Source: Candidatus Omnitrophota bacterium
Lineage (GTDB): Bacteria; Omnitrophota; Gorgyraeia; Gorgyraeales; Gorgyraeaceae
DNA length: 50,954 nt
Assembly: GCA_030691625.1 (NCBI GenBank)
Contig: JAUYDX010000034.1
Span: 1-50,954, forward strand
Direction of reading: 5' to 3'
The position numbers were made by a program, and so were the translations under genes. The stretch's first letter is position 1, and every line of letters starts with the position of its first letter. The notes under the pieces are model-generated. The model ran no database searches. It worked only from the letters and a program-made list of their open reading frames with translations, and had not been told where the DNA came from. Below are positions 3,181-41,784 of the stretch, in pieces.

Positions 3181-4325
3181 ATGAATTCTGCTATGTTCCT
3201 GGCTGCGTCAGGATACGCCAGAAGTTTTATCCTGGCCTTTATACCGAATATCTTTTCAGGGCAGGTTATGAATTCCTCTATGAAGCCGCAGACCTCTTTC
3301 GCGCTGTTCGCCTTTACTGCGGTGCCATAACCTGTCAGGATCTCGCAATTCCTTGTTTCCTGGCCCAGTATAGGCTGGACTATGATCATGGGCAATGTCT
3401 TTGAAAGCGCCTCTGTTATGGTAAGCCCGCCCGGCTTTGTGACTATTACGTCGCTCGCCTCCATAAATTCATCGACATTGTTCATGTAACCAAAGACCTT
3501 TAACCTCACCCCCTCACCCTTCCCTCTCCCCTTCGGGGAGAGGGTTAGGGTGAGGGAATTTCTCTTTAATTCATTAGCCAGTTTTTCGTTTTTGCCGCAT
3601 ATCGCGACCATCTGGATCCTGTCTTTTATTGCCAGAGGCATCTGGTTGATCCCGGTGATTATCTCTTTCATAGGCCCTGTGCCGAATCCGCCGCTCATTA
3701 CCAGGACATTGAAAAATCCCGGCTCGATGCCGAGCTTCTGTATCATCGCGTCCCTGCCTTTAGAAACGCTGAATACAGGATCACATGGGATTCCCAGTAT
3801 CCTTATCTTATCTTCTGGTATGCCGCGTTTTAAAAGATCTTTTTTTGTCCTCTGTATCGCGCCTGTAAAATAATCTGACGAGCGGGCCAGCCAGAAAGAA
3901 TGGCTTATAAAATCAGTCACCACTGTAACCAGCTTTCCTTTAAAATCCCCTCTGTCCTTCATCCAGGAAATAATCTCGCTCGGCACAAAATGCGTGGAAA
4001 CCACCACGTCTGGTTTTTCAGCCTTTATAAAATCTATAAATTTTCCGCAATTCCACCTGTGCAATGCCCTTCTCACAGGCGCCATAAAAAAATCAATGAC
4101 CCTGGCGTCAAGCATGTAATAAAAAATGCCCCAGAGCGTGGGAGTTCTATTTATAAGGAATAAATATACATTCGGGTACGAGGCCTTAAAAAATGGATTC
4201 GCGTAATCCAGGACATCCACACACTTCGCCTGGATGCCAGGAATGCCGGCCAGGGCCTTTTCTATTGCCATGGCAGCCTTCTTGTGCCCCACTCCCGCGT
4301 ACGCGTATGTAATAAGTATCTTCAT
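3165..4325 (-). CDS. MGDG synthase / GT28-like glycosyltransferase carrying an in-frame palindromic insert
   Basis: SYAGVGHKKAAMAIEKAL N-terminal motif; FGYMNNVDEFMEASDVIVTKPGGLTITEAL GT28-like C-terminal half; internal SLTLTLSPKGRGKGEGV is a repeat translation. Confidence 0.85.
   Translation of the reverse strand: MKILITYAYAGVGHKKAAMAIEKALAGIPGIQAKCVDVLDYANPFFKASYPNVYLFLINRTPTLWGIFYYMLDARVIDFFMAPVRRALHRWNCGKFIDFIKAEKPDVVVSTHFVPSEIISWMKDRGDFKGKLVTVVTDFISHSFWLARSSDYFTGAIQRTKKDLLKRGIPEDKIRILGIPCDPVFSVSKGRDAMIQKLGIEPGFFNVLVMSGGFGTGPMKEIITGINQMPLAIKDRIQMVAICGKNEKLANELKRNSLTLTLSPKGRGKGEGVRLKVFGYMNNVDEFMEASDVIVTKPGGLTITEALSKTLPMIIVQPILGQETRNCEILTGYGTAVKANSAKEVCGFIEEFITCPEKIFGIKARIKLLAYPDAARNIAEFITTLH
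3504..3556. repeat. Family-E palindrome ('SLTLTLSPKGRGxGEGV' type) in glycosyltransferase CDS
   Basis: cctcaccccctcacccttccctctccccttcggggagagggttagggtgaggg. Confidence 0.9.
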
Positions 4326-4332
4326 ATCTTTA

Positions 4333-4430
4333 ACTTCTCGACTCTGCTACCGTAACCTGCTCTCGTGACCGCTCGAAGAATATTGTTCGAGCGGTCACTG
4401 GAACGCTCCGCGAGAACAAAGTCGAGAACA
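4333..4430. repeat. Family-B repeat, back-to-back arms (AATATT centre)
   Basis: acttctcgactctgctaccgtaacctgctctcgtgaccgctcgaagaatattgttcgagcggtcactgg...aaagtcgagaac. Confidence 0.85.
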
Positions 4431-4598
4431 TTAAAATAGGGTGTAAATGAACGGCGCTACGGCTGACGACTGGGTAAAAAATATCAATAAGCCGAAAAGT
4501 AAAAGCACCGCCACTATAGGAATCATCCACCAGAGTTTTCTTGCCCATAAAAATCTGAAAAGTTCGCCTATTATCTTGAATCTTCCTTTAATACCCAT
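4431..4598 (-). CDS. Small membrane protein, DUF5989-like (55 aa)
   Basis: Not in ORF track. Minus-strand ATG at 4598 reads MGIKGRFKIIGELFRFLWARKLWWMIPIVAVLLLFGLLIFFTQSSAVAPFIYTLF then TAA at 4431; matches the remembered DUF5989 pattern (KLWW..P.....L.FG.L....QSSA.APFIYTLF). Confidence 0.85.
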   Translation of the reverse strand: MGIKGRFKIIGELFRFLWARKLWWMIPIVAVLLLFGLLIFFTQSSAVAPFIYTLF

Positions 4599-5146
4599 TC
4601 CACAGCCTCCGTCAGGTCTTTTTTTATAAAATCAGGTTTATGCTGCCATTTTTTCGCGTCCTTAGGGTCTTCTTTACCGGTAAGAAGCAGGATAGTTTTA
4701 CATCCCATATTTTTCCCAGCCCCCACATCCAGCCTGGAGTCCCCTATAAAATATGCCTTTTTAAAATCTATATCCATGCCCTTAGTGACCTTTTTTATCT
4801 GGCCTGTATTGGGTTTCCTGCAATCGCATCCTGCGTCGCTCGCGTGAGTGCAATAAGAAACTGACCTGATCTTCCCGCCTTTTGCCTCTATTTCTTTAAG
4901 CATGTTTACGGTAATCTCATCCAGCGACCCCTGCGAGTAAAGCCCCTTAGCCACGCCTGCCTGGTTTGATATCACGAATATCTCGTAGCCGTTTTTATTA
5001 AGGAGTTTTATAGCGTCTATCGCGCCAGGCATAAACTCAAACTCTGCCCAGGATTTTATATAATCCCCAAACCCCGGATCCCTATTGATCACGCCGTCTC
5101 TATCCAAAAATATCGCTTTCATCCCGTGTTTCCCCATTTCGCCCAA
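4571..5146 (-). CDS. gmhB: HAD-family histidinol-/heptose-bisphosphate phosphatase
   Basis: MKAIFLDRDGVINRDPGFGDYIKSW...VISNQAGVAKG...CDCRKPNTGQ...FIGDSRLDVGAG; likely start about 5122. Confidence 0.85.
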   Translation of the reverse strand: MGEMGKHGMKAIFLDRDGVINRDPGFGDYIKSWAEFEFMPGAIDAIKLLNKNGYEIFVISNQAGVAKGLYSQGSLDEITVNMLKEIEAKGGKIRSVSYCTHASDAGCDCRKPNTGQIKKVTKGMDIDFKKAYFIGDSRLDVGAGKNMGCKTILLLTGKEDPKDAKKWQHKPDFIKKDLTEAVEWVLKEDSR

Positions 5147-5150
5147 AAAA

Positions 5151-5181
5151 CCCTACAAAGTGACATTGTCAGTTTGTAGGG
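5151..5181. terminator. Bidirectional intrinsic-terminator-like hairpin containing the upstream gene's stop codon
   Basis: ccctacaaa gtgacattgtcag tttgtaggg flanked by aaaaaa and tttttt; stop TGA of 5169-5930 lies in the loop. Confidence 0.7.
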
Positions 5182-5930
5182 TTTTTTTGTTTTTTTAGCT
5201 CCCAGTATTTTGCGTAGCTGAAAATCTGATACAACGCGCCGTTCAGGGCCACCACAAACCCCACCATGCCGTCTTTATAGCCTTTTTTTCTGACATACGC
5301 CCTGAAAAACCTGTCAATTGTCTTCCAGGATATTGTCCAGAAACCTATCTTCCTTTTTTCGTCAAACCATTTCTGTGCCTCAAGGGTAGTCTGGCCATTG
5401 AGCCCCCTGAAAAGCTCCGCGAAATCATCATAGCCCTTATGAATAATATCGCTATTCAGCCTGCCGCACCTTCCCTTGTAAAAAACCCTTGGGTGCACGC
5501 CGACTTCCTCATACTTAAATTCTGATTTTTTGAACAATCTATCCTTGCGGCCAGGATACCACCCGCCGTATTTCACCCAGTAATTGCCTATATATGTCCT
5601 GAGGGGGATATTATAAACCACAAATTCATCTGATTCTATTGCGGCGCTTATCTCATTTTTTAATTCAGGCGTCACCTCTTCATCAGCGTCCAGGCTCAAC
5701 ACCCATTCATTTCTCGCCCTCTGGTACGCCCAGTTCCTGTGCGCGCCTTCTATATCCATGTGGCGCTGAAAAACCGCGGCGCCATTGGACTTAGCTATCT
5801 CCACAGTCCTGTCAGAGCTGAAATCATCCACCACTATGTGCTCATCTGCCCAGCCCTTGGCGCTAGCAATGCACGCGGCTATATTCTGCTCCTCATTTCT
5901 CGCTATGGTAACCACTGAAATCTTCTTCAT
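5169..5930 (-). CDS. GT2 glycosyltransferase (WaaE/KdtX-like)
   Basis: MKKISVVTIARNEEQNIAACIASAKGWADEHIVVDDFSSDRTVEIA...WVLSLDADEEVTPELKNEI. Confidence 0.85.
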   Translation of the reverse strand: MKKISVVTIARNEEQNIAACIASAKGWADEHIVVDDFSSDRTVEIAKSNGAAVFQRHMDIEGAHRNWAYQRARNEWVLSLDADEEVTPELKNEISAAIESDEFVVYNIPLRTYIGNYWVKYGGWYPGRKDRLFKKSEFKYEEVGVHPRVFYKGRCGRLNSDIIHKGYDDFAELFRGLNGQTTLEAQKWFDEKRKIGFWTISWKTIDRFFRAYVRKKGYKDGMVGFVVALNGALYQIFSYAKYWELKKQKNPTN

Positions 5931-5945
5931 CACGCCCTTCTCTCC

Positions 5946-5990
5946 AAACAACTTGACACTACTAACATTGTCATAAGTGTAAAGTTGTTT
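5946..5990. repeat. Family-A short hairpin
   Basis: aaacaacttgacactactaacattgtcataagtgtaaagttgttt; encodes last residues and stop of the 5971 CDS. Confidence 0.8.
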
Positions 5991-7791
5991 GTTTTTTCAG
6001 AATGTAGTATTCGCCGAACATAGCGCTTATTTTAAAGTTATCGCGCATGTACCTGAGGATTTTAAATGTCAATGGGTTCGCCTTATCATCAGTGTATTTA
6101 TCTAAACTATCCCAAAGGCCTTTCCCTGTTATTGCCAGTTTAATATTATACCTTACAATATCCTTTATTACATCATCTTGTTTATCAGGCCTGAAAAGGT
6201 CTGTGTGGAGTATATAATAAAAAGAGGCGTGCGCCCTGTCGGATAAAAAATAAAAAAGAGAGCTTTTATACGTGTCGAATATCTTTTCTCCCGGAGACGT
6301 ATTGGATTCTATGTACCTGACAATGCCTTCTATGGTTTCCTTGTCTTTTTCTGTCACCAATATGCCGCTGGCCCGCGGAAGCTTAAGCTCCGAACGCATG
6401 TTTACAATAGGCGGGAATATTGACCTGAAGCCCTCATTTTTAAACGCGGTAAAAAATCCGAAATAACTGACAAATACCAGCGGAAATACGCAGACCGTAA
6501 GGCTGGCGTACCTGGCGGCAGATAGCGCGTCCTTATTTTTCCTGACAAGCCTCTGCTTTAACCTCTGGACAGCTTCGTAACACACAAATGATAGAAGCAT
6601 ATACGCTGGCGGCATGCCCAGTACCAGATGAAGATGGTCCCTGGATATGCACAGAGACGCCCAGATATAAAAAATAGAGAAAAGCGTGATAAAAATAAAG
6701 CCCTTGTCCTCTTTAGCGATATATCTTTCCTGAAACAGCTTTCTCGCAATAACGAATATGCTGAAGACTACAGCCAGCATTGCCAGGTTAAAAAATCCAT
6801 TCACAGCTCCCATCTTTACGCGATCCAATAGGTAAATATTGTCCACATTATTTACCTGGATCACAAAAATAGCCATTAAGGCAATAATAGCGCTGATAAT
6901 ACTCAGCGATAAAAATAGAAACACCTTCTTCCTTCTGGCATTGCCCCAGTAATAATTATAAAAAAGCCAGGCGAGCAGGAAAAACACAGCTAAAATAACA
7001 ACGCTCGCGGATTTAACATGCGGAAAAGGATTAAATATCATGCGGCCTTTGGCAGAAAGCGCGGCAAACCCGAATACGTAATATAAAAATTCTGTTAGCG
7101 CTCCTTTCGCGGCGAAATAAGCGGTACATGACCCCATTACAGCCAGTATCCCTGTAATAAATACAGACTGTTTCCTTAAGATCTCCGCGGGCTTTTCTCT
7201 TTTCTCCTTACCGGAAAATACAAGACTGACAAATAAAAACGCCAGGTACGATCCCAGGCACGCCATGCCTAAATTTTGCTTTATTAAAAAAGCCGCGCCG
7301 CAGAATAGGCCTGTAAAAAATAAATGCGCGTAATTCCCTGAGCCAAGATATTTAAGATAAAAATATAAAAACGCCAAACCCATTGCCAGGCCATACCAGC
7401 CGTACCACGGGTGCCTTATCTGCGGAACGCCCCAGAAAATGAATAAAACTCCTGATATGGCCGCGAAATAATCCGAACGCGTTATGTTCCTGGAGATCCT
7501 GTAGAGAAGCCATGTAATCAAGAGGCCTAAAAATACTACTGTCATCCTTCCCGCCATTACAGTAGGCGCGAAGGCCTTGAATACAAGCGCCTGCAGATAA
7601 AAAGACCCCGGCGTGACATGTAATATAAAATCCTTATAAGGCGTAAACCCTTTCAGGATTAAATTTGACACATAAAGATGAAAACCCTCGTCATCAATAT
7701 CTATCCCATACCGCGAGAAAAATAAAAAATACGCGGCGGCGAACACTAGCAATAAAACCTCAATCTTATGTCTTAGGATAAATCTAATCAT
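5971..7791 (-). CDS. GT39/ArnT-like polytopic membrane glycosyltransferase
   Basis: Multiple TM segments and an early RYGIDIDDEGFHLYVSNLILKGFTPYKDF motif; true start probably MIRFILRHK at 7791, since the upstream ORF extension is repeat sequence. Confidence 0.75.
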   Translation of the reverse strand: MIRFILRHKIEVLLLVFAAAYFLFFSRYGIDIDDEGFHLYVSNLILKGFTPYKDFILHVTPGSFYLQALVFKAFAPTVMAGRMTVVFLGLLITWLLYRISRNITRSDYFAAISGVLFIFWGVPQIRHPWYGWYGLAMGLAFLYFYLKYLGSGNYAHLFFTGLFCGAAFLIKQNLGMACLGSYLAFLFVSLVFSGKEKREKPAEILRKQSVFITGILAVMGSCTAYFAAKGALTEFLYYVFGFAALSAKGRMIFNPFPHVKSASVVILAVFFLLAWLFYNYYWGNARRKKVFLFLSLSIISAIIALMAIFVIQVNNVDNIYLLDRVKMGAVNGFFNLAMLAVVFSIFVIARKLFQERYIAKEDKGFIFITLFSIFYIWASLCISRDHLHLVLGMPPAYMLLSFVCYEAVQRLKQRLVRKNKDALSAARYASLTVCVFPLVFVSYFGFFTAFKNEGFRSIFPPIVNMRSELKLPRASGILVTEKDKETIEGIVRYIESNTSPGEKIFDTYKSSLFYFLSDRAHASFYYILHTDLFRPDKQDDVIKDIVRYNIKLAITGKGLWDSLDKYTDDKANPLTFKILRYMRDNFKISAMFGEYYILKKQTTLHL

Positions 7792-7800
7792 AGGCCTCGT

Positions 7801-8434
7801 AATACTGTTCGAGCGGACGCAGTGACCATCTGCAGGCACCCTTGTATTGTTCGAGCGGACATAGTGACAATGCATGCAAGCCCAGTCGAGAACTTCTCGA
7901 CTCCGCTCCCGTGATAAGCTCTCCTGACCGCTCGAAGAATATTAGTTGATCATGTTTCAGGCTCTGCTAATACTGTTCGAGCGGACGCAGTGACCATCTG
8001 CAGGCACCCTTGTATTGTTCGAGCGGACATAGTGACAATGCATGCAAGCCCAGTCGAGAACTACCATTCACTTTTCCACTCTCCGCTTATCAGTTTTTCT
8101 TTCTTCTCCTTATTCCAATCTTTAACCTGCTTTTCCCTTCTTCTCGCAACCTCTAAGTCAGTATGCTCCTCTATATAAGCGATTCTTTTTACGCCGTGTT
8201 TTGCTGTATATCTGCCGCCAAGTCCTGAAACATGCTGGTCATATCTAAGCTCTGGCTTCCAGGTCATACCAGTGTAATAAGTACCGTCTTTGCATTCTAT
8301 TATGTATACATACCATTTCCAGTTGTCTTTCATAACATTCTAACTTCTCGACTCTGCTCCCGTAACATGCTCCCGTGACCGCTCGAAGGATATTATTTCC
8401 CGTAACATGCTCCCGTGACCGCTCGAAGGATATT
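7801..8434. mobile_element. Compound family-B repeat locus enclosing the GIY-YIG gene
   Basis: Arm at 7801-7893, inverted arm about 7894-7943, identical arm again 7969-8061, GIY-YIG gene, inverted arm(s) 8343-8434; 93-bp direct repeat 7801-7893 = 7969-8061. Confidence 0.7.
8061..8333 (-). CDS. GIY-YIG domain endonuclease-like protein (UPF0213-like)
   Basis: MKDNWKWYVYIIECKDGTYYTGMTWKPELRYDQHVSGLGGRYTAKHGVKRIAYIEEHTDLEVARRREKQVKDW; bracketed by family-B repeats on both sides. Confidence 0.9.
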   Translation of the reverse strand: MKDNWKWYVYIIECKDGTYYTGMTWKPELRYDQHVSGLGGRYTAKHGVKRIAYIEEHTDLEVARRREKQVKDWNKEKKEKLISGEWKSEW

Positions 8435-8452
8435 GGCAGGGCCGCGGGCATA

Positions 8453-9862
8453 CTAAGAAGCCTTTATCATGCTCACGCCTATGCGCAGCCAGTAAAAAAA
8501 CTCGCCCAGGCTTTTAATTTTCCCGAGTTCTTTAAATATATACCCCGGCCTCAGGTAAAACCTTCTCGTAAAATCCTTCTGGATTTTTTTTAACTCATCT
8601 ATCTTTAAAGATCCAAATCTCCAGGAAGGCGTGCCTCCGTACAGCACGAATTCATCCCATTTTTCCTCGCCCAGGTAACCGCCCTCTTTCATGATCCTGT
8701 TAAGCTCTGTGCCGGGAAAAGGCGCTGTCAGGGAAAACGCCATCAGGTCCGGATCCAGCTCTATAATCAGATCCATAGTGGCCTTTATATCGTCCATCGT
8801 TTCCAATGGGTGATTACCAAGCATAAAAGTGGCCTCAATGTAGCGAAGCCGGGATTTTCTGCAGATACTGAACGCCTTTTTTATCTGATCTATGGTGATC
8901 CCCTTCTTTATAAGGTTAAGCATCTTCTGACTGCCTGATTCCAGGCCGAAAGAAACCTTCTCGCACCCGCTTTCAACCATTTTAGCCACCATCTCCTCAT
9001 CCACCCTGTCCACCCTGGTAAAGCAGTCCCACGTAATCTTCTTTGACTTAAGGTAATCGCAAACAGGGTAAAATACATCTTTTTTAAAGGTAAACGTGTC
9101 GTCAAGTATCGTAAAATGGTTTGTTTTATATTTAGCCGCGCATTCTTCCATCTCCGCGATTATATTTTTTACGCTTCTATATCTTACCTTTGAGCCGAAA
9201 GTCACCTTGCTCGCGCAAAAGATGCAGCTATATGGACAGCCCCTCGCCGTCATTATCTCAGATATATTTTTAGTAGCCCTGGAAAATGCCCTGCTGGTAT
9301 GCGTCCTTTTATAGAGATCCGCGTTTAAGAATTCCCTGTCAGGAAACGGCAGGATATCAAGGTCTTCAATAAGCGGCCTTAAACCAGTATCTATAAAATT
9401 ATTATCCTGAGCCCTGTAAACCAGCCCCCTTACCTTTGAGAGGTCACTGCCTGAAACTATTGTATTATAAAGTTCCAGAAACGTGATCTCCCCTTCTCCT
9501 CTCATTACTATGTCAAAACACGGAAACTCTTTGAGCGTCCTATGAGGTATAGCGGTGGAATGGACCCCGCCCACCACCACTTTTAAATCCGGGAAATTTT
9601 CCTTTACCAGCTTCGCAATATCATGGCCCGCTGTTATGGTAGAGGTCATACAGCTCAAGCCCACTATAAGAGGATTAGATTTTTTTATAATCTCCAATAT
9701 AGCCGGCCTGCCCAGGTTCTCCACCTCCAGGTCCAGCAATTCCGTCCTTACATTATTCTTCTTGAGCCAGGAGGCAAGATACCCGAGATTTATAGGGTGC
9801 TGGGTTGACACGACCCCTTCGGGCACGGATTCATTCTTTGGCCTTACCAGTATTACGCTCAT
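8453..9862 (-). CDS. B12-binding-domain radical SAM protein
   Basis: N-terminal cobalamin-type domain (LIVGLSCMTSTITAGHDIAKLVK..VVVGGVHSTAIP) and CPYSCIFC radical SAM motif. Confidence 0.9.
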   Translation of the reverse strand: MSVILVRPKNESVPEGVVSTQHPINLGYLASWLKKNNVRTELLDLEVENLGRPAILEIIKKSNPLIVGLSCMTSTITAGHDIAKLVKENFPDLKVVVGGVHSTAIPHRTLKEFPCFDIVMRGEGEITFLELYNTIVSGSDLSKVRGLVYRAQDNNFIDTGLRPLIEDLDILPFPDREFLNADLYKRTHTSRAFSRATKNISEIMTARGCPYSCIFCASKVTFGSKVRYRSVKNIIAEMEECAAKYKTNHFTILDDTFTFKKDVFYPVCDYLKSKKITWDCFTRVDRVDEEMVAKMVESGCEKVSFGLESGSQKMLNLIKKGITIDQIKKAFSICRKSRLRYIEATFMLGNHPLETMDDIKATMDLIIELDPDLMAFSLTAPFPGTELNRIMKEGGYLGEEKWDEFVLYGGTPSWRFGSLKIDELKKIQKDFTRRFYLRPGYIFKELGKIKSLGEFFYWLRIGVSMIKAS

Positions 9863-11166
9863 ATTTTTGAACCAAGGAAATCTTTGAAGGCCTTGATAAT
9901 GTAACTAATTTGCGCAGGGCCTATGCCGGGATAAAGCCCTATAAAGAAACCATTTTTCATAACCTTATCCGCGTTTTTAAGAGAGCCTGGGACCCTGCAT
10001 TCTATATTCTTATAACCCGGCTGGTTAAGGATGTTGCCCGCGAATATAAAACGCGTCTCTATATTTTTTGATTCCAGAAATTTCACTATATCCTGCCTTG
10101 TAAACCCGGCGTCCTCTTTCACGCATAAAGGAAACGCGAACCAGGACACATCCGCTCTTTTATCCCAGCCAGGCAGAGAGAAATATTCCTTAAACTCTGA
10201 GAACGCGGAGTAAAGCAGGCTGAAATTTTTCTTTCTCTTTTCAATAAACCCATCCAGCTTCTCCAGCTGTCTCACGCCTATGGCGGACTGAATATCCGTA
10301 GGCTTAAGATTATATCCTATATCGCTGTAAATATACCTGTGGTCATAAGTGGAATCTATCTCTTTAATAAAATAATCGAATCTTTTATCGCACGCGCCCC
10401 TGGGCCCGGAATCATCCCCGCAGAAGCAATCCCTTCCCCAGTCCCTTATAGAGCGTAGTATCCTGGCCAGGTTCTGGTCCTGCGAAGTGACTGCCCCGCC
10501 CTCGCCCATCGCTATGTGATGTGCCGCGTAAAAACTGAATGTGGCTATGTCGCCGAAAGACCCGGTTATCCTGCCGTCAAATTTTGAACCAAGAGCGTCG
10601 CACGCGTCCTCGATCACGTATAAATCATGCCTATCGCTGAATTCCATTATCTTTTCCATGTCGCAGGGGTTTCCCAGGGTGTGCGTAACCTGAATAGCCC
10701 TTACGCGGCCGGAAACAGCTTTTTCCAGCAGACCCTCGTCTATATTAAAGGTGTCCATCCTGGCGTCCACAAAAACAGGGACCAGCCTATTCTGGATTAT
10801 AGGAGCGACCGTAGTAGGAAACGCGAGTCCGCAGGTAATAATCTCGTCTCCGGGTTTCAGCCTGTCTTTTAACCTGTTGGACATAAGGCCGGCGATCGCG
10901 ACAAGATTCGCTGAAGACCCTGAACTCACTAAGATAGTATTCTTAACGCCTAAAATCTCAGAAAATTTCCGCTCAAACTCCTTAGTGTATTTTCCGGCTG
11001 TGAGCCAAAAATCCAGCACAGCGTCCACAGCGGAGATCATTTCCTTTTCATTATAGACCCTGCCGGCGTAGTGAATCTTATCCTTGCCCGGAGAAAAAGC
11101 GCTTTTTTTATGGTATGCCTTGTAATACTCTTTTACTAATTTGAATATATCCTTTTTTTCCACCAC
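9859..11166 (-). CDS. rfbH: DegT-family CDP-6-deoxy-4-keto-glucose 3-dehydrase
   Basis: LIN-type start, RVYNEKEMISAVDAVLDFWLTAGKYTKEFERKFSEILGVKNTILVSSGSSANLVA, YAAHHIAMGEGGAV (His in place of the PLP lysine, as in E1 dehydrases); next to rfbF/rfbG-like genes. Confidence 0.9.
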   Translation of the reverse strand: MVEKKDIFKLVKEYYKAYHKKSAFSPGKDKIHYAGRVYNEKEMISAVDAVLDFWLTAGKYTKEFERKFSEILGVKNTILVSSGSSANLVAIAGLMSNRLKDRLKPGDEIITCGLAFPTTVAPIIQNRLVPVFVDARMDTFNIDEGLLEKAVSGRVRAIQVTHTLGNPCDMEKIMEFSDRHDLYVIEDACDALGSKFDGRITGSFGDIATFSFYAAHHIAMGEGGAVTSQDQNLARILRSIRDWGRDCFCGDDSGPRGACDKRFDYFIKEIDSTYDHRYIYSDIGYNLKPTDIQSAIGVRQLEKLDGFIEKRKKNFSLLYSAFSEFKEYFSLPGWDKRADVSWFAFPLCVKEDAGFTRQDIVKFLESKNIETRFIFAGNILNQPGYKNIECRVPGSLKNADKVMKNGFFIGLYPGIGPAQISYIIKAFKDFLGSKI

Positions 11167-12086
11167 TCTATTGTCCTCCTTAATCCCTCGTCCAGGCTGA
11201 CCCTGGGTTTCCAGCCTAAAAGTTTCCTGGCCAGGGTATTGTCGCAGTAAAACCTGGATACCTCGCCCGGCCTGTAAGAAAGTTTTCCTGTCTTAAGCCT
11301 GATGCCTGAACCTGCCATGGAAACAATCTTCTCCGCCAAATCTATTATCCTGTAATCTTTTCCGCACCCTATATTGATTATCCTGCCTATTGCCCTGCTG
11401 TTAGAGCCCAGCCTGATAAAACCATCCACGATATCGCTCACGTAATTAAACTCCCTTGTCTGGTCTCCTTTTGTCATCTCGAAATCATGGCCTCTTAAAG
11501 CGGATTCTATCAGGGACGGTATAAACATATTATTCACCTGGCCGGGGCCGTAAGTCAGAAACGGCCTCGCTGTGACAATGGGCATTTTAAATGAGCGGTA
11601 GAGCATCCCGCAGTAAAATGTGGCAGCCGCCTTTGACGCGGAATAAGGAGAAACCGGGCTTGGCAGATCCTTTTCCCTGAAAGGCGCCTTATTATCCCCG
11701 TATTCCTCGCAGGTCCCGGTATTGACTATCGCTTCGCAATCGGTATCTTTAAGAGCCAGCATAAAATTCATGGCGCCTGAGACATTTACCCTGAGCATAT
11801 CGTCCAGTAAAGACATATCCCGCGAGGCGTTTACCAATGAAGCCAGGTGAAAGGCCTTGTCAGGATTGATTTTTTTTATCTCTGTCCTAAGGCCAGGGCC
11901 GCAGATATCGCATTCGATAATATTGATCTTATCTTCAATCTCTTTTACCCTCCATAAATCCATTCCCGGCTCTATGACGCAGTAAAGCTCAGCGCCTAAA
12001 TCAATAAGCGTTTTTACAAGATGCGAACCTATAAATCCGTCCCCGCCGCTCACCACTACCTTAAGATTTTTATAGTTTTTCTTCAT
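11136..12086 (-). CDS. NAD-dependent epimerase/dehydratase (candidate CDP-dideoxyhexose synthase/reductase)
   Basis: VVVSGGDGFIGSHLVKTL Rossmann motif, YSASKAAATFYC; position between rfbG- and rfbH-like genes. Confidence 0.8.
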   Translation of the reverse strand: MKKNYKNLKVVVSGGDGFIGSHLVKTLIDLGAELYCVIEPGMDLWRVKEIEDKINIIECDICGPGLRTEIKKINPDKAFHLASLVNASRDMSLLDDMLRVNVSGAMNFMLALKDTDCEAIVNTGTCEEYGDNKAPFREKDLPSPVSPYSASKAAATFYCGMLYRSFKMPIVTARPFLTYGPGQVNNMFIPSLIESALRGHDFEMTKGDQTREFNYVSDIVDGFIRLGSNSRAIGRIINIGCGKDYRIIDLAEKIVSMAGSGIRLKTGKLSYRPGEVSRFYCDNTLARKLLGWKPRVSLDEGLRRTIEWWKKRIYSN

Positions 12087-13035
12087 ACCACGCTATTGTT
12101 TTTTTAAGGCCCTGGTTTAAGGTATATTCCGGCTTCCAGTTTAAAACCCTTCTCGCCTTCATAGAGCATAAAAACTGGTTTTTTATCTCGTATTTCGCCT
12201 TATTCAGGATCTTATAATCAGGTTTTTTACCTGCCAGCTTATATATCCTCTTTACCATCTCTATCACTGTGATCGGGTTTTCACAGCTGAAATTGAACGC
12301 CTCGCCGTATAACCTCAGTTTTTTCATATTTTCAGCCAGCGCCATATAGCCGTTCACTATGTCCTCCACATAGACATAGTCGCGTATAAATTTTCCGTCG
12401 CTGCGTATAAGAAGCGTCCCTCCTTTTACAGCGCGCCTTATCGCGTCAGGCGCGATCCTTGATAAATGGAAATCCCCTGGGCCGTAGATATTGCCGCACC
12501 TCGTAACGCAAACAGGCACCCTGTACGTATTCCAGTAAGCGCGGCATATAAGGTCTGCGCAGCTTTTAGAAACATCATAGGGGTGGCTTCCTTTTAACGC
12601 TGCGTCTTCTTTATACGGGAGGATTTTATGGCTTCCGTACGCCTTGTCGCTTGATGCCACGACAATGGCCTCTATAAATTTCTTATCCCTTGACGCCTCA
12701 AGTATATTCCACGTGCCCTCTATATTAGACTTAAAAGCCGCCACAGGATCTTTATTCGCCTCGCCCACTATGGCCTCTGCAGCGATATGGAAAATAACCT
12801 GCGGTTTATATTTATTCACTATTTTCTTTACTGATCTTAAATCGCTGATATCCTCTTTGATAGAGATAATATTCTTTCTCAGGCCTTCCAGCATGTTATC
12901 GGGCCTATTTTTAACCTTATCCACGCCTATTATCCTGGCTCCGCTGCCTGATAAAACCCTGGCCATGTTAGAGCCCAAAAACCCCTCATGGCCTGTGATT
13001 AAAACAGTCTTGTTTTTCCAGAAATCAGCCATCAA
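12070..13035 (-). CDS. rfbG: CDP-glucose 4,6-dehydratase-like SDR
   Basis: FWKNKTVLITGHEGFLGSNMARVL, SSDKAYGSHKILPYKEDAALKGSHPYDVSKSCADLI. Confidence 0.8.
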   Translation of the reverse strand: MMADFWKNKTVLITGHEGFLGSNMARVLSGSGARIIGVDKVKNRPDNMLEGLRKNIISIKEDISDLRSVKKIVNKYKPQVIFHIAAEAIVGEANKDPVAAFKSNIEGTWNILEASRDKKFIEAIVVASSDKAYGSHKILPYKEDAALKGSHPYDVSKSCADLICRAYWNTYRVPVCVTRCGNIYGPGDFHLSRIAPDAIRRAVKGGTLLIRSDGKFIRDYVYVEDIVNGYMALAENMKKLRLYGEAFNFSCENPITVIEMVKRIYKLAGKKPDYKILNKAKYEIKNQFLCSMKARRVLNWKPEYTLNQGLKKTIAWYEEKL

Positions 13036-13053
13036 TACCTCCTACCGTAACAA

Positions 13054-13155
13054 CAATACTGTTCGAGCGGACGGACTGACAATACATGCGAGCTCAGTCG
13101 AGAACTTCTCGACTCTGCTACCGTAATACGCTCTCGGGACCGCTCGAAGAATATT
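13054..13155. repeat. Family-B repeat, head-to-head arms (GTCGAGAAC centre)
   Basis: aatactgttcgagcggacggactgac...ctcagtcgagaacttctcgactctgctacc...gggaccgctcgaagaatatt. Confidence 0.85.
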
Positions 13156-13173
13156 AGGTTTTTACAAGAGCTC

Positions 13174-13965
13174 CTACCATACTTTCCAGGCAGCTTTATT
13201 ATTGCGCCAGACATCGTTAAGAAGCTCCATATCCCTTTGGGTGTCCATGCACTGCCAGAACCCGTCGTGTTTATAAATAGACATCTGGTTATTTTTCGCT
13301 ATTTTCTCCAGCGGCTCCCTTTCCAGTATGCATTTATCGTCCTTTTTCAGGTAGTCAAATATACTCTTATTGAAGACAAAAAAACCTCCGTTTATGTAAG
13401 CTTCTTTTACCTGCGGCTTTTCGCTGAATTCCTTTACCGTTTTGCCATCGCTTATAAGCTCCCCGAACCTGGACTGAGGATGCACGCCCAAAACAGTGGC
13501 GATCTTTTTACTATCCTTATGAAATTTCACCAGCTTCCCGATATCAGCGTCTGTCACGCCGTCCCCGTATGTAACCATAAATTCGTCTGAATCTATGTAC
13601 TGCTCTATCTTCTTAAGCCTGGAGCCGGTCATGGATTCAAGTCCTGTGTCCGCGATAGTGATGTTCCACTCTTCCTGAGCGCCCTTGTCATGAAACTTCA
13701 TTTCTGATTTTTTTCCCAGATGTATGGTGAAATCATCGTTCATTGCCCTGTAGTTTAAAAAATATTCCTTTATCATGTCGCCTTTGTAACCCGCGCACAG
13801 GATAAAATCCCTGTACCCGTAATGGTCATATATCTTCATTATGTGCCAGAGTATGGGCCTCGAGCCTATCTCCACAAGCGGCTTAGGCCTGAACTCCGTC
13901 TCCTGCATTAACCTCATTCCTCTTCCCCCGCATAGGATCACAACCTTCATATTTTCCATAACCAT
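13174..13965 (-). CDS. rfbF: Glucose-1-phosphate cytidylyltransferase
   Basis: MKVVILCGGRGMRLMQETEFRPKPLVEIGSRPILWHIMKIYDHYGYRDFILCAGYKGDMIKEYF. Confidence 0.93.
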   Translation of the reverse strand: MVMENMKVVILCGGRGMRLMQETEFRPKPLVEIGSRPILWHIMKIYDHYGYRDFILCAGYKGDMIKEYFLNYRAMNDDFTIHLGKKSEMKFHDKGAQEEWNITIADTGLESMTGSRLKKIEQYIDSDEFMVTYGDGVTDADIGKLVKFHKDSKKIATVLGVHPQSRFGELISDGKTVKEFSEKPQVKEAYINGGFFVFNKSIFDYLKKDDKCILEREPLEKIAKNNQMSIYKHDGFWQCMDTQRDMELLNDVWRNNKAAWKVW

Positions 13966-13976
13966 ACCTCCTGAAT

Positions 13977-14077
13977 AATACTGTTCGAGCGGACGTTGTG
14001 ACCATACATTAAAACCCAGTCGAGAACTTCTCGACTCCGCTCCCGTGATAATCTCTCGTGACCGCTCGAAGAATATT
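13977..14077. repeat. Family-B repeat, head-to-head arms
   Basis: atactgttcgagcggacgttgtgacc...cccagtcgagaacttctcgactccgctcccgtgataatctctcgtgaccgctcgaagaatatt. Confidence 0.85.
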
Positions 14078-14759
14078 AGTGTTTTATTTTATAGGCGAGC
14101 ATCTCGCCTATAAAACCGAACACCGCCTTTATGTTTACCTTTGAAGCGCCTTTTTCCCTTTTTTTAAACACCACGGACACGTCGCCGATCTTTGAACCGA
14201 GATTGGAAAATCTTATCATTATCTCCGCGTCTATGAACCAGCCCTTGGACACAAGGCTTATGCCCTGAAAAATCGACCGCTTGAAAATCTTAGGCGTGCC
14301 ATTCAGGTCGTGATCATTGACAGAAAATAAAAGCGGACATATGATATTGTAAAAAAAACTTATAAATTTCCTGGAAAACCCGTCGTGCCTTTCCACGCGC
14401 TTAACCTTGCATAAATCCAGGCCCTCTTTTTTAAGCTTATCGTAAACGCGGATTATCTCTGAGGCATCCACCTGGTTATCCCCGCACATAAATCCGAGAT
14501 AGTCTCCCCGGGATTTCTCCAGGCCCTGCCTGATGCCCCAGCCGTATCCTTCGTTCACGTTAACTTTTACTACCTTAAGCGCGTTTATTTTTTTCTTCAG
14601 CTCTTCCAGTATCTTGCCTGTCTTATCGATAGACCCGTTATCCACAGCCACTATCTCGTAGCTGATATTACTGCCGGAAAGCACGGCGTCTATCCCGTTT
14701 AAAACGCCGGCCGCATTATCCTCCTCATTGTAAAAAGGTATGACTACAGAAAGCTCCAT
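14076..14759 (-). CDS. GT2 glycosyltransferase (DPM1-like)
   Basis: MELSVVIPFYNEEDNAAGVLNGIDAVL...IVAVDNGSIDKTGKIL. Confidence 0.85.
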   Translation of the reverse strand: MELSVVIPFYNEEDNAAGVLNGIDAVLSGSNISYEIVAVDNGSIDKTGKILEELKKKINALKVVKVNVNEGYGWGIRQGLEKSRGDYLGFMCGDNQVDASEIIRVYDKLKKEGLDLCKVKRVERHDGFSRKFISFFYNIICPLLFSVNDHDLNGTPKIFKRSIFQGISLVSKGWFIDAEIMIRFSNLGSKIGDVSVVFKKREKGASKVNIKAVFGFIGEMLAYKIKH

Positions 14760-14760
14760 T

Positions 14761-16416
14761 TTATCTCCGTTTTAAAATATTAACCGCTGAATAAGCAGCC
14801 GCGACCCTATAATTCTCATTTAAATAACCATTGACCTCGTCCAGATATTTTCCAAGAGTCGGCCTGTACGGTTCGAGCCTCGAAAAATCCCTGGCGCAGA
14901 TGACAAAATCCGGTTTTTTATCCTTAAGGTCAGCCATCATCTCATTAAACCATTCGGGAATTATAAAAGAAAACTCCGCAGAGTAAAACCTGCCCAGAGG
15001 CTGAGTATCAGTAAGAAAATTATACGCCCCAAGTTCCGGAAAAGTAAAAACTATATCCCGGGCTTTTACGCGCGAAGATATATATCTTATGACATTATCC
15101 ATCTCTTCTGCCTGGGGCCCGGGAACCACTATGCCTTTCGCGCGCTCAGATTTGATTGCCTCGGGAAAAGGGTCTGCGTACGGAATAGCGGCATGGGATT
15201 TTTTTAAAACAAGGCTTTTTACCTCTTTAAAAATAAAAAATCTTTTATCATACTTGGCGAACGAAAAGGCGACAGAATACAGCGGAATCAATACCATCAA
15301 AAAAATCGCCAGCGCCTTCTTATACCCGGTTAAAATCCCTGCCTTTTTCTTTATGAACAGGTACGCCTCTTCAATGTATAAAAACATTACCAGGAGTAAC
15401 GGCTGGAGCGCCATCCTGTATTGAGGCCCCTCTATGTCCCTGAAAGCCCCTCTGTATAAAAACGCGCCGTAAATAACTATGGAAATCACTATTATGTCCG
15501 AAACAGCTATTTTTCTCTTTATAATTTTTTTCAATATAAGCGCGCCTATTAAGATATAAAAGAAAAAAGGCAGGGTGTACTTAAAATTATGATTGAAAGG
15601 CATGACGGCTGACATCAGAAATTCCTTAAAATTTTTTGGGGTGTCGAAATCCAGGCTTACGTTAAACACATCCGTCATCCTAGTAAGCACTATTTTTACA
15701 GTATCGACATAGGATACAAAGGCATTGTTTAAAAATAGATAAACTATAAAAGGGGCTGATGCTATAAAAAACCCTGATATATAAACAGGCGCGTATCTTA
15801 AAATTGATCTCATATCTTTAGATTCAAAATAACTATATAGGCAGATCATGGATATTACAGAAATAAAGCTAAAAGCGCCTATCTCAAAGCTTGTCCAAAA
15901 CGCGAGACCGGACATGGCTCCTGCGAGAAATAACCAGAGCCCTTTCTTTTTATTTAAAAAGTTCGCGGCTAACATTATTGCAGATATCCCCAGCCCAAAC
16001 CTTATACCGCCCCATACGTTGTAGCAGGACCAGGGAAATGTCCTGGCTGTCAAAACCAGGGCGAACAGGTAAACAAAGCCCCTTGTCCTGAATATCTTTA
16101 AAGCGAAAATAGCGCATATTATAAGCGTCAGGACTGTCCCGAAGTAAAAATACGCGTTTAATACGCCTATGTGTTTCCCAAATATGGCCATCATTGACAT
16201 AGGCATAAGCATTTCCAGCGGCCCTCTTAAAATAAACATGTCCCTGTAGAGCGCCTTGCCATGGAACAGTTCATTTATCTGGGGCAGGTATAGCCCTGTT
16301 TCGTAAAAATTTATACTGCCATGCATAAAATAAGGCTGTAACGTAACAATGGCTATTATGGCTCCTAAAAATATATAATCCGATATTAGTGTCCTGTGTT
16401 TTATCATATTTTGCAT
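14761..16416 (-). CDS. GT39-like polytopic membrane glycosyltransferase
   Basis: About 10 hydrophobic segments; early YFMHGSINFYETGLYLPQINELFHGKALYRDMFILRGPLEML motif; similar layout to 5971-7791. Confidence 0.65.
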   Translation of the reverse strand: MQNMIKHRTLISDYIFLGAIIAIVTLQPYFMHGSINFYETGLYLPQINELFHGKALYRDMFILRGPLEMLMPMSMMAIFGKHIGVLNAYFYFGTVLTLIICAIFALKIFRTRGFVYLFALVLTARTFPWSCYNVWGGIRFGLGISAIMLAANFLNKKKGLWLFLAGAMSGLAFWTSFEIGAFSFISVISMICLYSYFESKDMRSILRYAPVYISGFFIASAPFIVYLFLNNAFVSYVDTVKIVLTRMTDVFNVSLDFDTPKNFKEFLMSAVMPFNHNFKYTLPFFFYILIGALILKKIIKRKIAVSDIIVISIVIYGAFLYRGAFRDIEGPQYRMALQPLLLVMFLYIEEAYLFIKKKAGILTGYKKALAIFLMVLIPLYSVAFSFAKYDKRFFIFKEVKSLVLKKSHAAIPYADPFPEAIKSERAKGIVVPGPQAEEMDNVIRYISSRVKARDIVFTFPELGAYNFLTDTQPLGRFYSAEFSFIIPEWFNEMMADLKDKKPDFVICARDFSRLEPYRPTLGKYLDEVNGYLNENYRVAAAYSAVNILKRR

Positions 16417-17276: not shown

Positions 17277-17311
17277 TGTTAGCGCCTTTTCAATCTATCT
17301 TGGAAAATTGG

Positions 17312-17413
17312 GAACTTCTCGACTTCGCTTCCGTAACTGGCTCTCGTGATCGCTCGAAGAATATTGTTGTTCGAGCGGAAATTATGGCTCTACATACGCG
17401 CCCAGTCGAGAAC
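17312..17413. repeat. Family-B repeat, back-to-back arms
   Basis: gaacttctcgacttcgcttccgtaactggctctcgtgatcgctcgaagaatattgttgttcgagcgg...cccagtcgagaac. Confidence 0.85.
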
Positions 17414-17420
17414 CTTTGCT

Positions 17421-17458
17421 CAAGTTGACAAATCTGTCATTGACAGAAGTGTCAACTT
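17421..17458. repeat. Nested hairpin related to family A, abutting a stop codon
   Basis: aagttgaca-aat-ctgtcattgacag-aag-tgtcaactt. Confidence 0.7.
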
Positions 17459-28436: not shown

Positions 28437-28520
28437 ACTTCTCGACTCTACTCCCGTAACCGGCTCTCGTGATCGCTCGAAAAATATTAGTGTTCGAGCG
28501 AGCGAAGCGAGTCGAGAACC
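28437..28520. repeat. Family-B repeat, back-to-back arms, overlapping the GT9 3' end
   Basis: acttctcgactctactcccgtaaccggctctcgtgatcgctcgaaaaatattagtgttcgagcgagcgaagcgagtcgagaac. Confidence 0.85.
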
Positions 28521-33501: not shown

Positions 33502-33623
33502 CTTCTCGACTCCGCTCCCGTGATAAGCTCTCATGACCGCTCGAAGAATATCCCTCGACAAGCTCGGGACATGTTAGTGTTCGAGCGGACTTATTGGCTA
33601 TACACGCAAGCCCAGTCGAGAAC
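33502..33623. repeat. Family-B repeat with a second small palindrome nested at its centre
   Basis: ttctcgactccgctcccgtgataagctctcatgaccgctcgaagaatat|ccctcgacaagctcgggac|atgttagtgttcgagcgg...cccagtcgagaac. Confidence 0.8.
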
Positions 33624-37843: not shown

Positions 37844-39022
37844 TCAATTTTTCTTATTTTTTTGCAGGATATTATTATACAACCTTTCTGTCTCCTTTAT
37901 CAACCTTTCTTTTGTAAATCGGCATTTTACGGCATTTCTGGCACTTTGGCCAAATTCCCTTCTTTTCACAGGATCTTTTATTAAATCCGTTAGTTTCCTG
38001 GTAAATCCTTCTATATCGCCTGATTCTACGAGATATCCCGTCTTTCCATCCTGCACAATATCAGGCACGCCGCCTACATTCGTAGCCACCACAGGCCTGG
38101 CTGCTGCCATTGCCTCTATAATAGACACAGGCGTGCCCTCATTCAGGGACGTCAGTGCCACAATATCCAGGCCCTCATAGATCGCCTTTAGATCCTTTAC
38201 CCAACCTCTGAACTCCACTAAATCTGTTAGACCTAATTCTCCCGCATATCTTTCTAATTCCTCCCTCATCTCCCCATCCCCGACTATCACAATGCGGATA
38301 CTGTTCGAGCGGACATGTTGTTTTAGATTGCGGACACAGTCGAGAACCATTTTATGATTCTTTATCGGGACAAGTCTTCCAATAATTCCAATATTAATAA
38401 TCTCAGAATTCTGCCTGGGCAGTAACTTAAAAAGCTCATCCAGCTCAAACCCAAGCTCTATCACTTCTATTTTTCTTTCAGGCGCTATCCTGTATGTTCC
38501 CACCAGTTCTTTTTTAAGGCTCGCGCTCACAGTAATGATCTTATCCGTAAAAAGCGCCAGAAACCTCTCTACCCATATAAAAAACAGCGTCTTAAATTTC
38601 CCAAAATACCCGCTAAACACATGGCCGTGAAAGGTGTGCACCAAAATAACCTTCCCAACCTCGTAGGTTGCCGAAGGCAACCTACGAGGTTTATTAAACA
38701 GGTTATACAAAATACCTGCTAATCTCCCCAATGCCCCTGCCTTAGCCGTATGCGTATGGATAATATCCGGTTTTTCCCTGCAAATAATTTTATATATCTT
38801 CCAGAACGCGGTCCAGTCATCCTTCCACGAAAGCTCCCTCGCCAGTTCAGGCACTATTACAGGCACTATGCCTTTTTCCCTGGCAATGTAAGCCATGTCT
38901 CCTTCGGCCTTTCCCACTTCCCCGCACACCAGCACAGTTTCAGGCAGCCCTTCGCTCAATAGCACCGCATTCCTCGCCGGCCCACCGATATTCAATCTAA
39001 CAATAATCCTTAAAATTTTCAT
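37844..39022 (-). CDS. GT4 glycosyltransferase with two in-frame repeat inserts
   Basis: IVGDGEMREELERYAGELGLTDLVEFRGWVKDL; NEGTPVSIIEAMAAARPVVATNVGGVPDIV; NKPRRLPSATYEVG and VLDCVRNLKQHVRSNS are repeat-encoded. Confidence 0.9.
   Translation of the reverse strand: MKILRIIVRLNIGGPARNAVLLSEGLPETVLVCGEVGKAEGDMAYIAREKGIVPVIVPELARELSWKDDWTAFWKIYKIICREKPDIIHTHTAKAGALGRLAGILYNLFNKPRRLPSATYEVGKVILVHTFHGHVFSGYFGKFKTLFFIWVERFLALFTDKIITVSASLKKELVGTYRIAPERKIEVIELGFELDELFKLLPRQNSEIINIGIIGRLVPIKNHKMVLDCVRNLKQHVRSNSIRIVIVGDGEMREELERYAGELGLTDLVEFRGWVKDLKAIYEGLDIVALTSLNEGTPVSIIEAMAAARPVVATNVGGVPDIVQDGKTGYLVESGDIEGFTRKLTDLIKDPVKRREFGQSARNAVKCRFTKERLIKETERLYNNILQKNKKN
38298..38348. repeat. Single family-B arm inside GT4 coding sequence
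   Basis: atactgttcgagcggacatgttgttttagattgcggacacagtcgagaac, read as VLDCVRNLKQHVRSNSI. Confidence 0.8.
38657..38691. repeat. Family-C palindrome in GT4 CDS
   Basis: aacctcgtaggttgccgaaggcaacctacgaggtt. Confidence 0.9.
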
Positions 39023-39863: not shown

Positions 39864-41784
39864 AGTCGATGAACTCGTTATGCCAGAGCTCCAGGAATAA
39901 CAGGCTCCAGATCCTGGCGCCGTTATTGATCCTGGCGGCTGCGTGGTCATCGAGAACCTTTTTTATCGCCTCTTTCTTGAAATAGCCTCTACTCACAGCC
40001 TTATCGCTCAAAAGAATCCCATATGAATAATCTTTAAGCTCTTTTCTGAACCACGCGTCAAGGGGCACGCCGAATCCCATTTTGCCGCGGGAGAGTATTT
40101 CTTTAGGCAATGCCTTTGAAAGCGCTTTTTTAATAATATATTTTAATTTTGTGCCTTTTATTTTCATTGCGCTTGGCATGGCGGCGCAGAATTCCATCAT
40201 TTTATGGTCGAGAAACGGCGAGCGGCCTTCTAAGGAATTAGCCATTGTGGCAATGTCCATTTTCACAAGCAGGTCGTCGAGGAGATTTGTCTTTATATCA
40301 GTAGACATTACCATGTCCACGATATCTTTAGAGCCGCATTCATTGAATGCCTTGTCTAAATAGGCAAATGAGCTCCTACCAGCCATTTCTTTATTAAATC
40401 CGTCGCTAAATAAATTTTCCTTTTCAGAATCCCTGAATATCGTTACCCAGTTATAATGCCTTTCCCTGTACGGCTTCTGGGACATTACTAAAAATCTCCT
40501 GAGCCTGGTTTTAAAATCCTTGAATTCCAGAGATTCCGGGATTTTTCCTATAATGAGTTTTATTATTTTTTCCTTAAAAGGAAACGGCGTATTTTTTATG
40601 AGTTCAGCGTATCTCGCAGCCATAAACCTTTCGTATCCGCCGAAACACTCGTCTCCGCCGTCGCCATTTAAGGCCACAGTCACTTCTTCGCGGGTCATCT
40701 TTGCCACGTAGTAACTCGGAAGAGCTGAAGAATCAGCGTATGGCTCGTTATAATGCCATACGAGTTTCGGGAGGAGCTCTATCGCGTTAGGCTTTACTAT
40801 ATATTCGCGGTGTTCTGTCTTAAACCGTTCAGCAATGATCCTCGCGTATTTAAGCTCACTATATTTCTCCTCGTCAAAACCTATTGAGAAGGTCTTCACA
40901 GGCTTGGAGCTGAGCCTCGCCATCATATACACGACAGCGCTTGAATCTATGCCTCCGCTTAAAAACGCTCCGAGCGGCACATCGCTTATGAGGCGGATTT
41001 TCGTACACTCTTCCAGTAAATCCAGCGATCTCTGGCAGTATTCGTTTTCCGATAATTTCAGTTTTCTGGAAAAATCCAGGGCCCAGTATTTCTCGAGCCT
41101 GATATTGCCCTTTTCATAAATCATAAAATGCGCCGGCGGGAGTTTCATAATACCCTTAAACATCGTCTCAGGGGTAGGTGTATAGCCATAGCTAAGGTAA
41201 TCTGTAATGGCAGGCCTATTAACTTCAGCGTTCACTTCTGGATCCTGTAAAATCGCCTTGATCTCTGAGGCAAATATCAGAATTTGATTTTTATAGGTAT
41301 AATAGAGGGGTTTTTTGCCAATCCTGTCCCTCGCGATAAATAGCATCTCTCTGCGGCTGTCCCAGATAGCAAAGCTAAACGGACCTCTTAAATACTTAAG
41401 GCACTCCACGCCTTTTTCCTCATAGAGATGTAAAATCACCTCTGTATCAGTGTGCGACTTAAAAACATGGCCTTTTTTTACAAGCCCGTCTTTTAATTCT
41501 ATAAAATTATAAATCTCGCCATTTAAAACTATCCAAAGCGAACCGTCTTCATTACTCATCGGCTGGTGCCCGGCAGGCGATAGATCAATAACAGCGAGCC
41601 TTCTGTGTCCAAAACCTATGCTAATACCGTTCGAGCGGTCCCGAGAGCCAGTCACGAGAGCAGAGTCGAGAACCCACACCCCCTCATCATCCGGCCCCCT
41701 GTGCGTAAGCACTCCGCACATCTTCCTAATGAGTGCCTCGTTCACATTCCCATTCAAACTAATCTTCCCGCATATCCCGCACAT
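39862..41784 (-). CDS. asnB: Asparagine synthase (glutamine-hydrolysing)-like amidotransferase
   Basis: MCGICGKISLNG (start placed so Cys2 is catalytic), [34 protein letters not shown] insert is repeat-encoded. Confidence 0.9.
   Translation of the reverse strand: MCGICGKISLNGNVNEALIRKMCGVLTHRGPDDEGVWVLDSALVTGSRDRSNGISIGFGHRRLAVIDLSPAGHQPMSNEDGSLWIVLNGEIYNFIELKDGLVKKGHVFKSHTDTEVILHLYEEKGVECLKYLRGPFSFAIWDSRREMLFIARDRIGKKPLYYTYKNQILIFASEIKAILQDPEVNAEVNRPAITDYLSYGYTPTPETMFKGIMKLPPAHFMIYEKGNIRLEKYWALDFSRKLKLSENEYCQRSLDLLEECTKIRLISDVPLGAFLSGGIDSSAVVYMMARLSSKPVKTFSIGFDEEKYSELKYARIIAERFKTEHREYIVKPNAIELLPKLVWHYNEPYADSSALPSYYVAKMTREEVTVALNGDGGDECFGGYERFMAARYAELIKNTPFPFKEKIIKLIIGKIPESLEFKDFKTRLRRFLVMSQKPYRERHYNWVTIFRDSEKENLFSDGFNKEMAGRSSFAYLDKAFNECGSKDIVDMVMSTDIKTNLLDDLLVKMDIATMANSLEGRSPFLDHKMMEFCAAMPSAMKIKGTKLKYIIKKALSKALPKEILSRGKMGFGVPLDAWFRKELKDYSYGILLSDKAVSRGYFKKEAIKKVLDDHAAARINNGARIWSLLFLELWHNEFID
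41623..41673. repeat. Single family-B arm inside asnB
   Basis: aataccgttcgagcggtcccgagagccagtcacgagagcagagtcgagaac, read as [17 protein letters not shown]. Confidence 0.85.

Follow-up and report, generated by a model that had tools for sequence, protein, structure and literature searches.

A small GIY-YIG nuclease gene bracketed by tandem-G.A hairpins in Omnitrophota and Patescibacteria, a candidate REPIN/RAYT-like unit

Bacterial genomes commonly contain short interspersed hairpins, and those outside the RAYT-linked REPs are, to our knowledge, mostly without a known enzyme. The stretch of 50,954 nucleotides analysed here (the window) is one contig of a 1.44-Mb, 101-contig Omnitrophota assembly and carries a gene for a small GIY-YIG nuclease between the two arms of a palindromic repeat. 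This raises the question of whether gene and repeat belong together and, if so, whether the nuclease could move the repeat. Among the literature hits listed, no open paper joined GIY-YIG proteins with REP or RAYT elements or reported these hairpin sequences as repeats.

The gene and its two hairpins

The gene (8061..8333, minus strand) encodes a protein of 90 amino acids with a UPF0213-like single domain. The GIY-YIG domain (PF01541, E 1.6e-15) was the only one detected, and a Y1 (HUH) tyrosine transposase domain is absent. The GIY-YIG motif residues are present, with Y10, Y20, G22, R30, H34 and E67 being invariant. The nearest solved folds to the AlphaFold (AF2) model of the protein (pLDDT 90.7) were those of UPF0213 (PDB 1zg2, 1ywl) and then, weakly, that of Slx1, a nuclease for branched DNA. 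While the single-domain UPF0213 proteins are thus similar in sequence and fold, 1zg2 and 1ywl have no recorded function or repeat association in the data seen. Searches of NCBIfam, PADLOC and PHROGs gave zero matches, and no homologue above 40% identity was found in plasmids and phages. The subfamily gene occurs as a single copy per genome; the rest of the host genome holds one other GIY-YIG domain, inside a gene named uvrC-like from its sequence. Strong purifying selection acts on the gene: relative to the homologue in the genus-mate G017, dN is 0.10 and dS, near saturation, is 3.4.

In the direction of transcription, the locus consists of a C-type hairpin (8388-8344), 10 bp, the ATG, the gene, its TAG and an inverted G-type hairpin (8061-8017). 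The 5' unit (8344..8388, minus strand; CTTC-GA-...-GA-GAAG) runs in the gene's own direction, and its foot starts at 8344. The 3' unit (8017..8061, plus strand; GTTC-GA-...-GA-GAAC) runs against the gene, and C8061, the end of its foot, is at the same time the last base of the stop codon. The sequence-only reading had placed a 90-aa ORF between two arms of a palindromic element, with the stop codon touching one arm and the start 10 bp from the other. Sequence, coordinates and ORF were all correct. Both arms of the gene-bearing copy also carry a partial tandem duplication, read from the sequence as an extra truncated G-type unit before the 3' hairpin (7969..8016, plus strand) and a duplicated tip of the C-type unit (about 8389..8434, minus strand).

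A gene-less facing pair (7801..7943) adjoins the gene-bearing copy. The left arms of the two are identical over 92 bp (7801-7892 and 7969-8060), while their right arms differ. Further facing G/C pairs without a gene lie at 13055..13155 (G unit 13061-13105, C unit 13105-13149) and 13977..14077 (units 13983-14027 and 14027-14071), where the sequence-only reading had listed gene-less copies.

A strand-specific hairpin dispersed through the host genome

The repeat family extends well beyond these copies. CAGTCGAGAA was found 19 times with at most one mismatch (1.6 expected) and the hairpin tip motif 15 times (0.16 expected). Genome-wide, the exact unit TTCGAGCGG-N-GTCGAGAA occurs 89 times versus once for the reversed-pattern control, and a wider unit pattern 148 times versus 0. 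A very loose pattern, TTCGANN{4,34}GAGAA, was uninformative, with the control exceeding the signal in most genomes. The elements have diverged to a median identity of 68%, and Rfam 15 covariance models gave no match up to E 1 in window positions 4000-18000.

Many copies read CTTC-GA-GC-GA-stem-GNA loop-stem'-GA-GTC-GA-GAAG. Across 39 distinct inner segments, the inner stem averaged 3.74 bp; with halves swapped among copies, the average was 0.76 bp and did not exceed 1.41 in 1000 shuffles. The feet vary with pairing kept, as in CCCC/GGGG and GCCC/GGGC at a locus in Komeilibacteria (L055), and clades differ in having G-C, C-G (as at L187) or A-T (as at L120) as the inner closing pair. Each unit is a strand-specific hairpin that carries tandem G.A mismatches and has a covarying inner stem. 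On one strand, the mismatches place GA against GA, an arrangement that would be sensible mainly if that strand acted as single-stranded DNA. In a DNA energy model, the single-unit hairpin was not favoured in all cases, and the G-type unit of the window folded poorly.

The arrangement of the units was assessed in 283 kb of the host genome, which contained 111 of them. Most (94/111) are in pairs, and 40 of the 47 pairs combine one C-type with one G-type unit. Facing arms had been taken as the form of the element; this holds for the gene-bearing copy and the gene-less copies named at the time, but not in general, as 38/47 pairs are permuted to a back-to-back order and only nine face each other, seven of these with a one-base overlap. 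Within the window, back-to-back pairs lie at 4334..4429 (C unit on the minus strand, AATATT, G unit on the plus strand), 17315..17413, 28438..28519 (with a short G unit) and 33502..33623 (with an enlarged spacer), and lone plus-strand units at 38303..38347 and 41629..41673. The back-to-back spacer measures 6 nt in 16 cases and 9 nt in 13, and is mostly AATATT or AATATTNNN; AATATT precedes 64/111 units. Although ORFs make up 84% of the sequence, 87/111 units are intergenic, none of the 111 lying between divergently transcribed genes.

Evidence bearing on mobility came from the pair at 4334-4429, which is absent from the orthologous site, with conserved synteny, in two genomes of the same genus: the flanks join directly in G013 and are separated by an 8-bp gap in G011. 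Five other relatives have unrelated sequence at this site. The flanks of the pair are AT-rich and TTAA-like, which is only suggestive of a short target duplication. Of the empty sites that the sequence-only reading had called for, we thus found one for a gene-less pair, but no clean empty site for the gene-bearing copy within the genus. Considering that the gene is single-copy and the elements are diverged, recent activity is not evident.

Several other observations concern the same regions. At the intergenic site orthologous to window position 4430, two different unrelated gene inserts are found in relatives (G012:C30, G017:C54, G014:C162, G016:C1 and G018:C8), marking an insertion hot spot. 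A second dispersed repeat at window positions 5940-6008 has copies of 83-98% identity in many contigs and relatives, and positions 5145-5187 form a palindromic repeat that matches itself in inverted orientation at 93%. Elsewhere in the host genome (G000:C96:3743-3787, L235), a hairpin unit has apparently been inserted within a protein-coding gene, since the G017 orthologue aligns on both sides; this is similar in spirit to the Rickettsia palindromic elements.

Pairing of gene and hairpin across bacteria

Close homologues of the protein, defined by an identity of 51% or more, are rare (5/384 Omnitrophota genomes) and occur also in Levy-, Davies-, Komeili- and Berkelbacteria. They form one protein clade (support 97/94) that includes both Omnitrophota and Patescibacteria. 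Hairpins were present at every usable locus of this close subfamily, usually on both sides, as expected if homologues are repeatedly flanked by such arms. Within 150-bp flanks, an upstream hairpin on the same strand was found at 9/13 subfamily loci versus 7/95 other genes of those loci, a downstream hairpin on the opposite strand at 10/13 versus 7/95, and hairpins on both sides at 7/13 versus 0/95. Requiring 5-bp stems proved too stringent for the subfamily, with its 4-bp feet. The held-out sample came from the class to which Daviesbacteria belong. All 13 new subfamily members in it had hairpins, some of them identified by eye since the C-G type fell outside the fixed motif; nearly all had them on both sides, the exceptions being L191 (5' side only) and L199 (cut off by the contig end). 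A motif-free test for inverted repeats (score of at least 14) gave 5/23 subfamily loci and 5/93 distant loci compared to 5/917 control genes.

The 5' hairpin usually lies 4-18 nt from the ATG of the subfamily gene, and in 10/24 loci, across Omnitrophota and Patescibacteria, the G of the TAG stop is also part of the 3' foot. With inner-pair types assigned by eye, the protein tree required 3 changes of hairpin type versus 11.1 for shuffled labels, the lowest of 300 shuffles being 7. Hairpin subtype follows the protein tree.

We also compared copy number with gene presence. All five gene-bearing Omnitrophota genomes have 9-148 units each. Three of them (G172, G227 and G331) belong to three other families, in which other sampled members have 0-3 units, with no other member sampled for the family of G227. 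The expectation of the sequence-only reading that element-rich genomes always encode the gene was partly contradicted. In the genus of the window, G008 has 129 units and no detected close homologue, its assembly being 79% complete, and G009, G011, G012 and G016, likewise without a detected homologue, have 12-18 units each (5-18 when G018 is included). A further exception is G169, with 11 units and no close homologue. Element copy number follows the gene, though not perfectly. The extreme density was found in a gene-bearing genome of only 0.6 Mb, Berkelbacteria UBA1384 (L059), with 270 units versus 0 for the control; at its locus, both units are of the GTTC...GAAC type. In two other gene-bearing genomes (G389/L051 and G393/L056), nearly all real hairpin matches surround the gene.

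Homologues without arms would have counted against a link between protein and repeat. None were seen among usable close-subfamily loci; they occur only in distant GIY-YIG subfamilies, some of which have hairpins of their own. Among 78 distant loci from many phyla (31-47% identity), on which the hairpin motif was itself partly defined, 11/78 had a hairpin upstream on the gene's strand, with tandem G.A and different feet, versus 8/793 other genes, and 4/78 had hairpins on both sides versus 0/793. Held-out distant loci gave 6/15 versus 2/23 other genes of the same loci. This is suggestive of an extension of the pairing to distant subfamilies, with moderate rather than firm support. Examples are a TM6 locus (L107) with CCGTTCGCCCTGAGTTTATCGAAGGG on both sides, and loci in Chitinophagaceae (L104) and Aquimarina (L109). 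A distant Omnitrophota homologue (L044, 1380-1915 of G002:C8) is bracketed by TGTCATTYCCGCGAAAGCGGGAATC hairpins following the same orientation rule; these hairpins resemble a Neisseria repeat of the dRS3 type. In 10 genomes with distant GIY-YIG genes only, units were near the control level.

Two further observations were made at subfamily loci. In Komeilibacteria S5_K13 (L067), the gene is flanked on either side by a long copy of a complete facing hairpin pair, the two copies being in direct orientation (direct-repeat score 124.5). At L053/L132, L195 and L198, the subfamily genes have one internal stop codon each and are likely decaying copies.

A possible mobile unit and its alternatives

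The known system that the locus brings to mind is RAYT/REPIN, in which a single-copy gene lies beside its own REP-like units, and the REPINs are mostly inverted pairs of units, intergenic and with many non-autonomous copies (Bertels and Rainey 2011, PMC3116915). Here too, a single-copy gene is flanked by REP-like units, and the units are mainly inverted, intergenic doublets of which many are gene-less; in both systems, the hairpin is strand-specific and imperfect with a conserved 5' flank, in our case AATATT. The enzymes differ, however, a GIY-YIG nuclease standing in place of the Y1 HUH transposase of RAYT, as do the hairpins, which carry tandem G.A mismatches and are paired as two unlike types (C and G). 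A gene-bearing copy with gene-less copies sharing its ends is also reminiscent of MITEs and their parent IS elements, but neither a DDE nor any other known transposase is present, a target duplication is not clear, and most copies are permuted.

We consider it fairly probable (about 0.6) that gene and hairpins form a compact selfish or semi-domesticated unit, whose product acts as a structure- and sequence-specific nuclease in REPIN/RAYT-like copying. The observed basis comprises the association of gene and hairpin, the covarying strand-specific hairpin, the match of subtype and clade, purifying selection and one empty site of a gene-less pair. Most of the tests called for by the sequence-only reading gave positive outcomes, and its proposal of a nuclease-linked element with gene-less derivatives, analogous to RAYT/REP, is well supported and fits the anatomy; it fits less well with the elements in same-genus genomes in which the gene was not detected. 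The hairpins are likely cognate sites of the GIY-YIG protein, and mobilization of the hairpins by the protein is a plausible hypothesis. A facing C-type/G-type pair flanks the gene, and C/G pairs without it are dispersed through the genome. The 90-aa protein would recognize the tandem-G.A hairpin when its strand is single, e.g., at replication forks, and would nick at or near the hairpin foot. Subsequent repair or strand transfer could then place copies of the paired hairpins at AT-rich sites between genes, as in the REPIN/RAYT scheme but with a GIY-YIG enzyme taking the role of the Y1 transposase. Both the cleavage site and the single-strand preference are suppositions of this model.

The closest known system is probably Ssn, which we give as a lead. 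Ssn proteins have been described in Neisseria as small GIY-YIG site-specific single-strand nucleases with hundreds of genomic copies of a cognate sequence, the dispersed NTS repeats, and homologues have other specificities. The likeness lies in a small GIY-YIG protein with a dispersed genomic sequence, which in our case can be called cognate through association and clade tracking only. The window-type hairpins differ in sequence, flank the gene under a constant orientation rule and also exist as gene-less paired derivatives. The protein could be an Ssn-like nuclease whose role is not transposition but, for example, control of ssDNA uptake or recombination, the repeats having spread otherwise. 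The anatomy shared with Ssn, the TGTCATTYCCGCGAAAGCGGGAATC repeats around L044 and the selection on the gene would all suit such a role. Features suggestive of a mobile unit are the fusion of stop codon and foot, the patchy distribution over phyla and the joint occurrence of gene and element in separate Omnitrophota families, and we regard the non-transposition role as possible but unlikely.

GIY-YIG enzymes are classical homing nucleases, and the exact position of the gene is the junction between two facing units, a pair that exists without it in the same genome; a homing-type nuclease may have invaded the centre of pre-existing palindromes, making the repeats its target rather than its product. 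This is improbable given that hairpin type tracks the protein clade, that the hairpins detected in G389 and G393 are essentially confined to the surroundings of the gene, and that elements in three other Omnitrophota families occur essentially only where the gene is present. A chance neighbourhood of the gene and ordinary intergenic palindromes or transcription terminators would suit the mostly intergenic placement of the units and their absence between divergently transcribed genes, but is largely refuted by the enrichment and orientation rule at GIY-YIG genes relative to other genes, the held-out loci and the co-variation with the protein tree, and we give it hardly any weight.

Enzyme and hairpin here change together as a pair, which offers an uncharacterised protein family a substrate that can be tested directly, and tiny nucleases may have a second route to shape genomes; new sequence-specific single-strand cutters are possible if the biochemistry holds. 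Should the parallel with Ssn hold, the recognition half would be a variant of the Ssn kind, and the new parts would be the gene-bracketing architecture, the paired non-autonomous derivatives, and the covarying hairpins with tandem G.A, which co-evolve with the protein. A broader and tentative idea, which we hold at less than even odds, is that small GIY-YIG nucleases are general mobilising (or dependent) partners of widespread tandem-G.A interspersed hairpins, the CCTGAGCTTGTCGAAGG type included, the two making up a second, RAYT-independent REP/REPIN world.

Finally, other small GIY-YIG genes were observed just behind tRNA genes in G003 (L047) and G017 (L048), the inserts being flanked by repeats of the tRNA 3' end. 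The hairpins at L048 read GATTGC-GA-...-GA-GCAATC, and these loci look like a different, tRNA-targeting GIY-YIG element.
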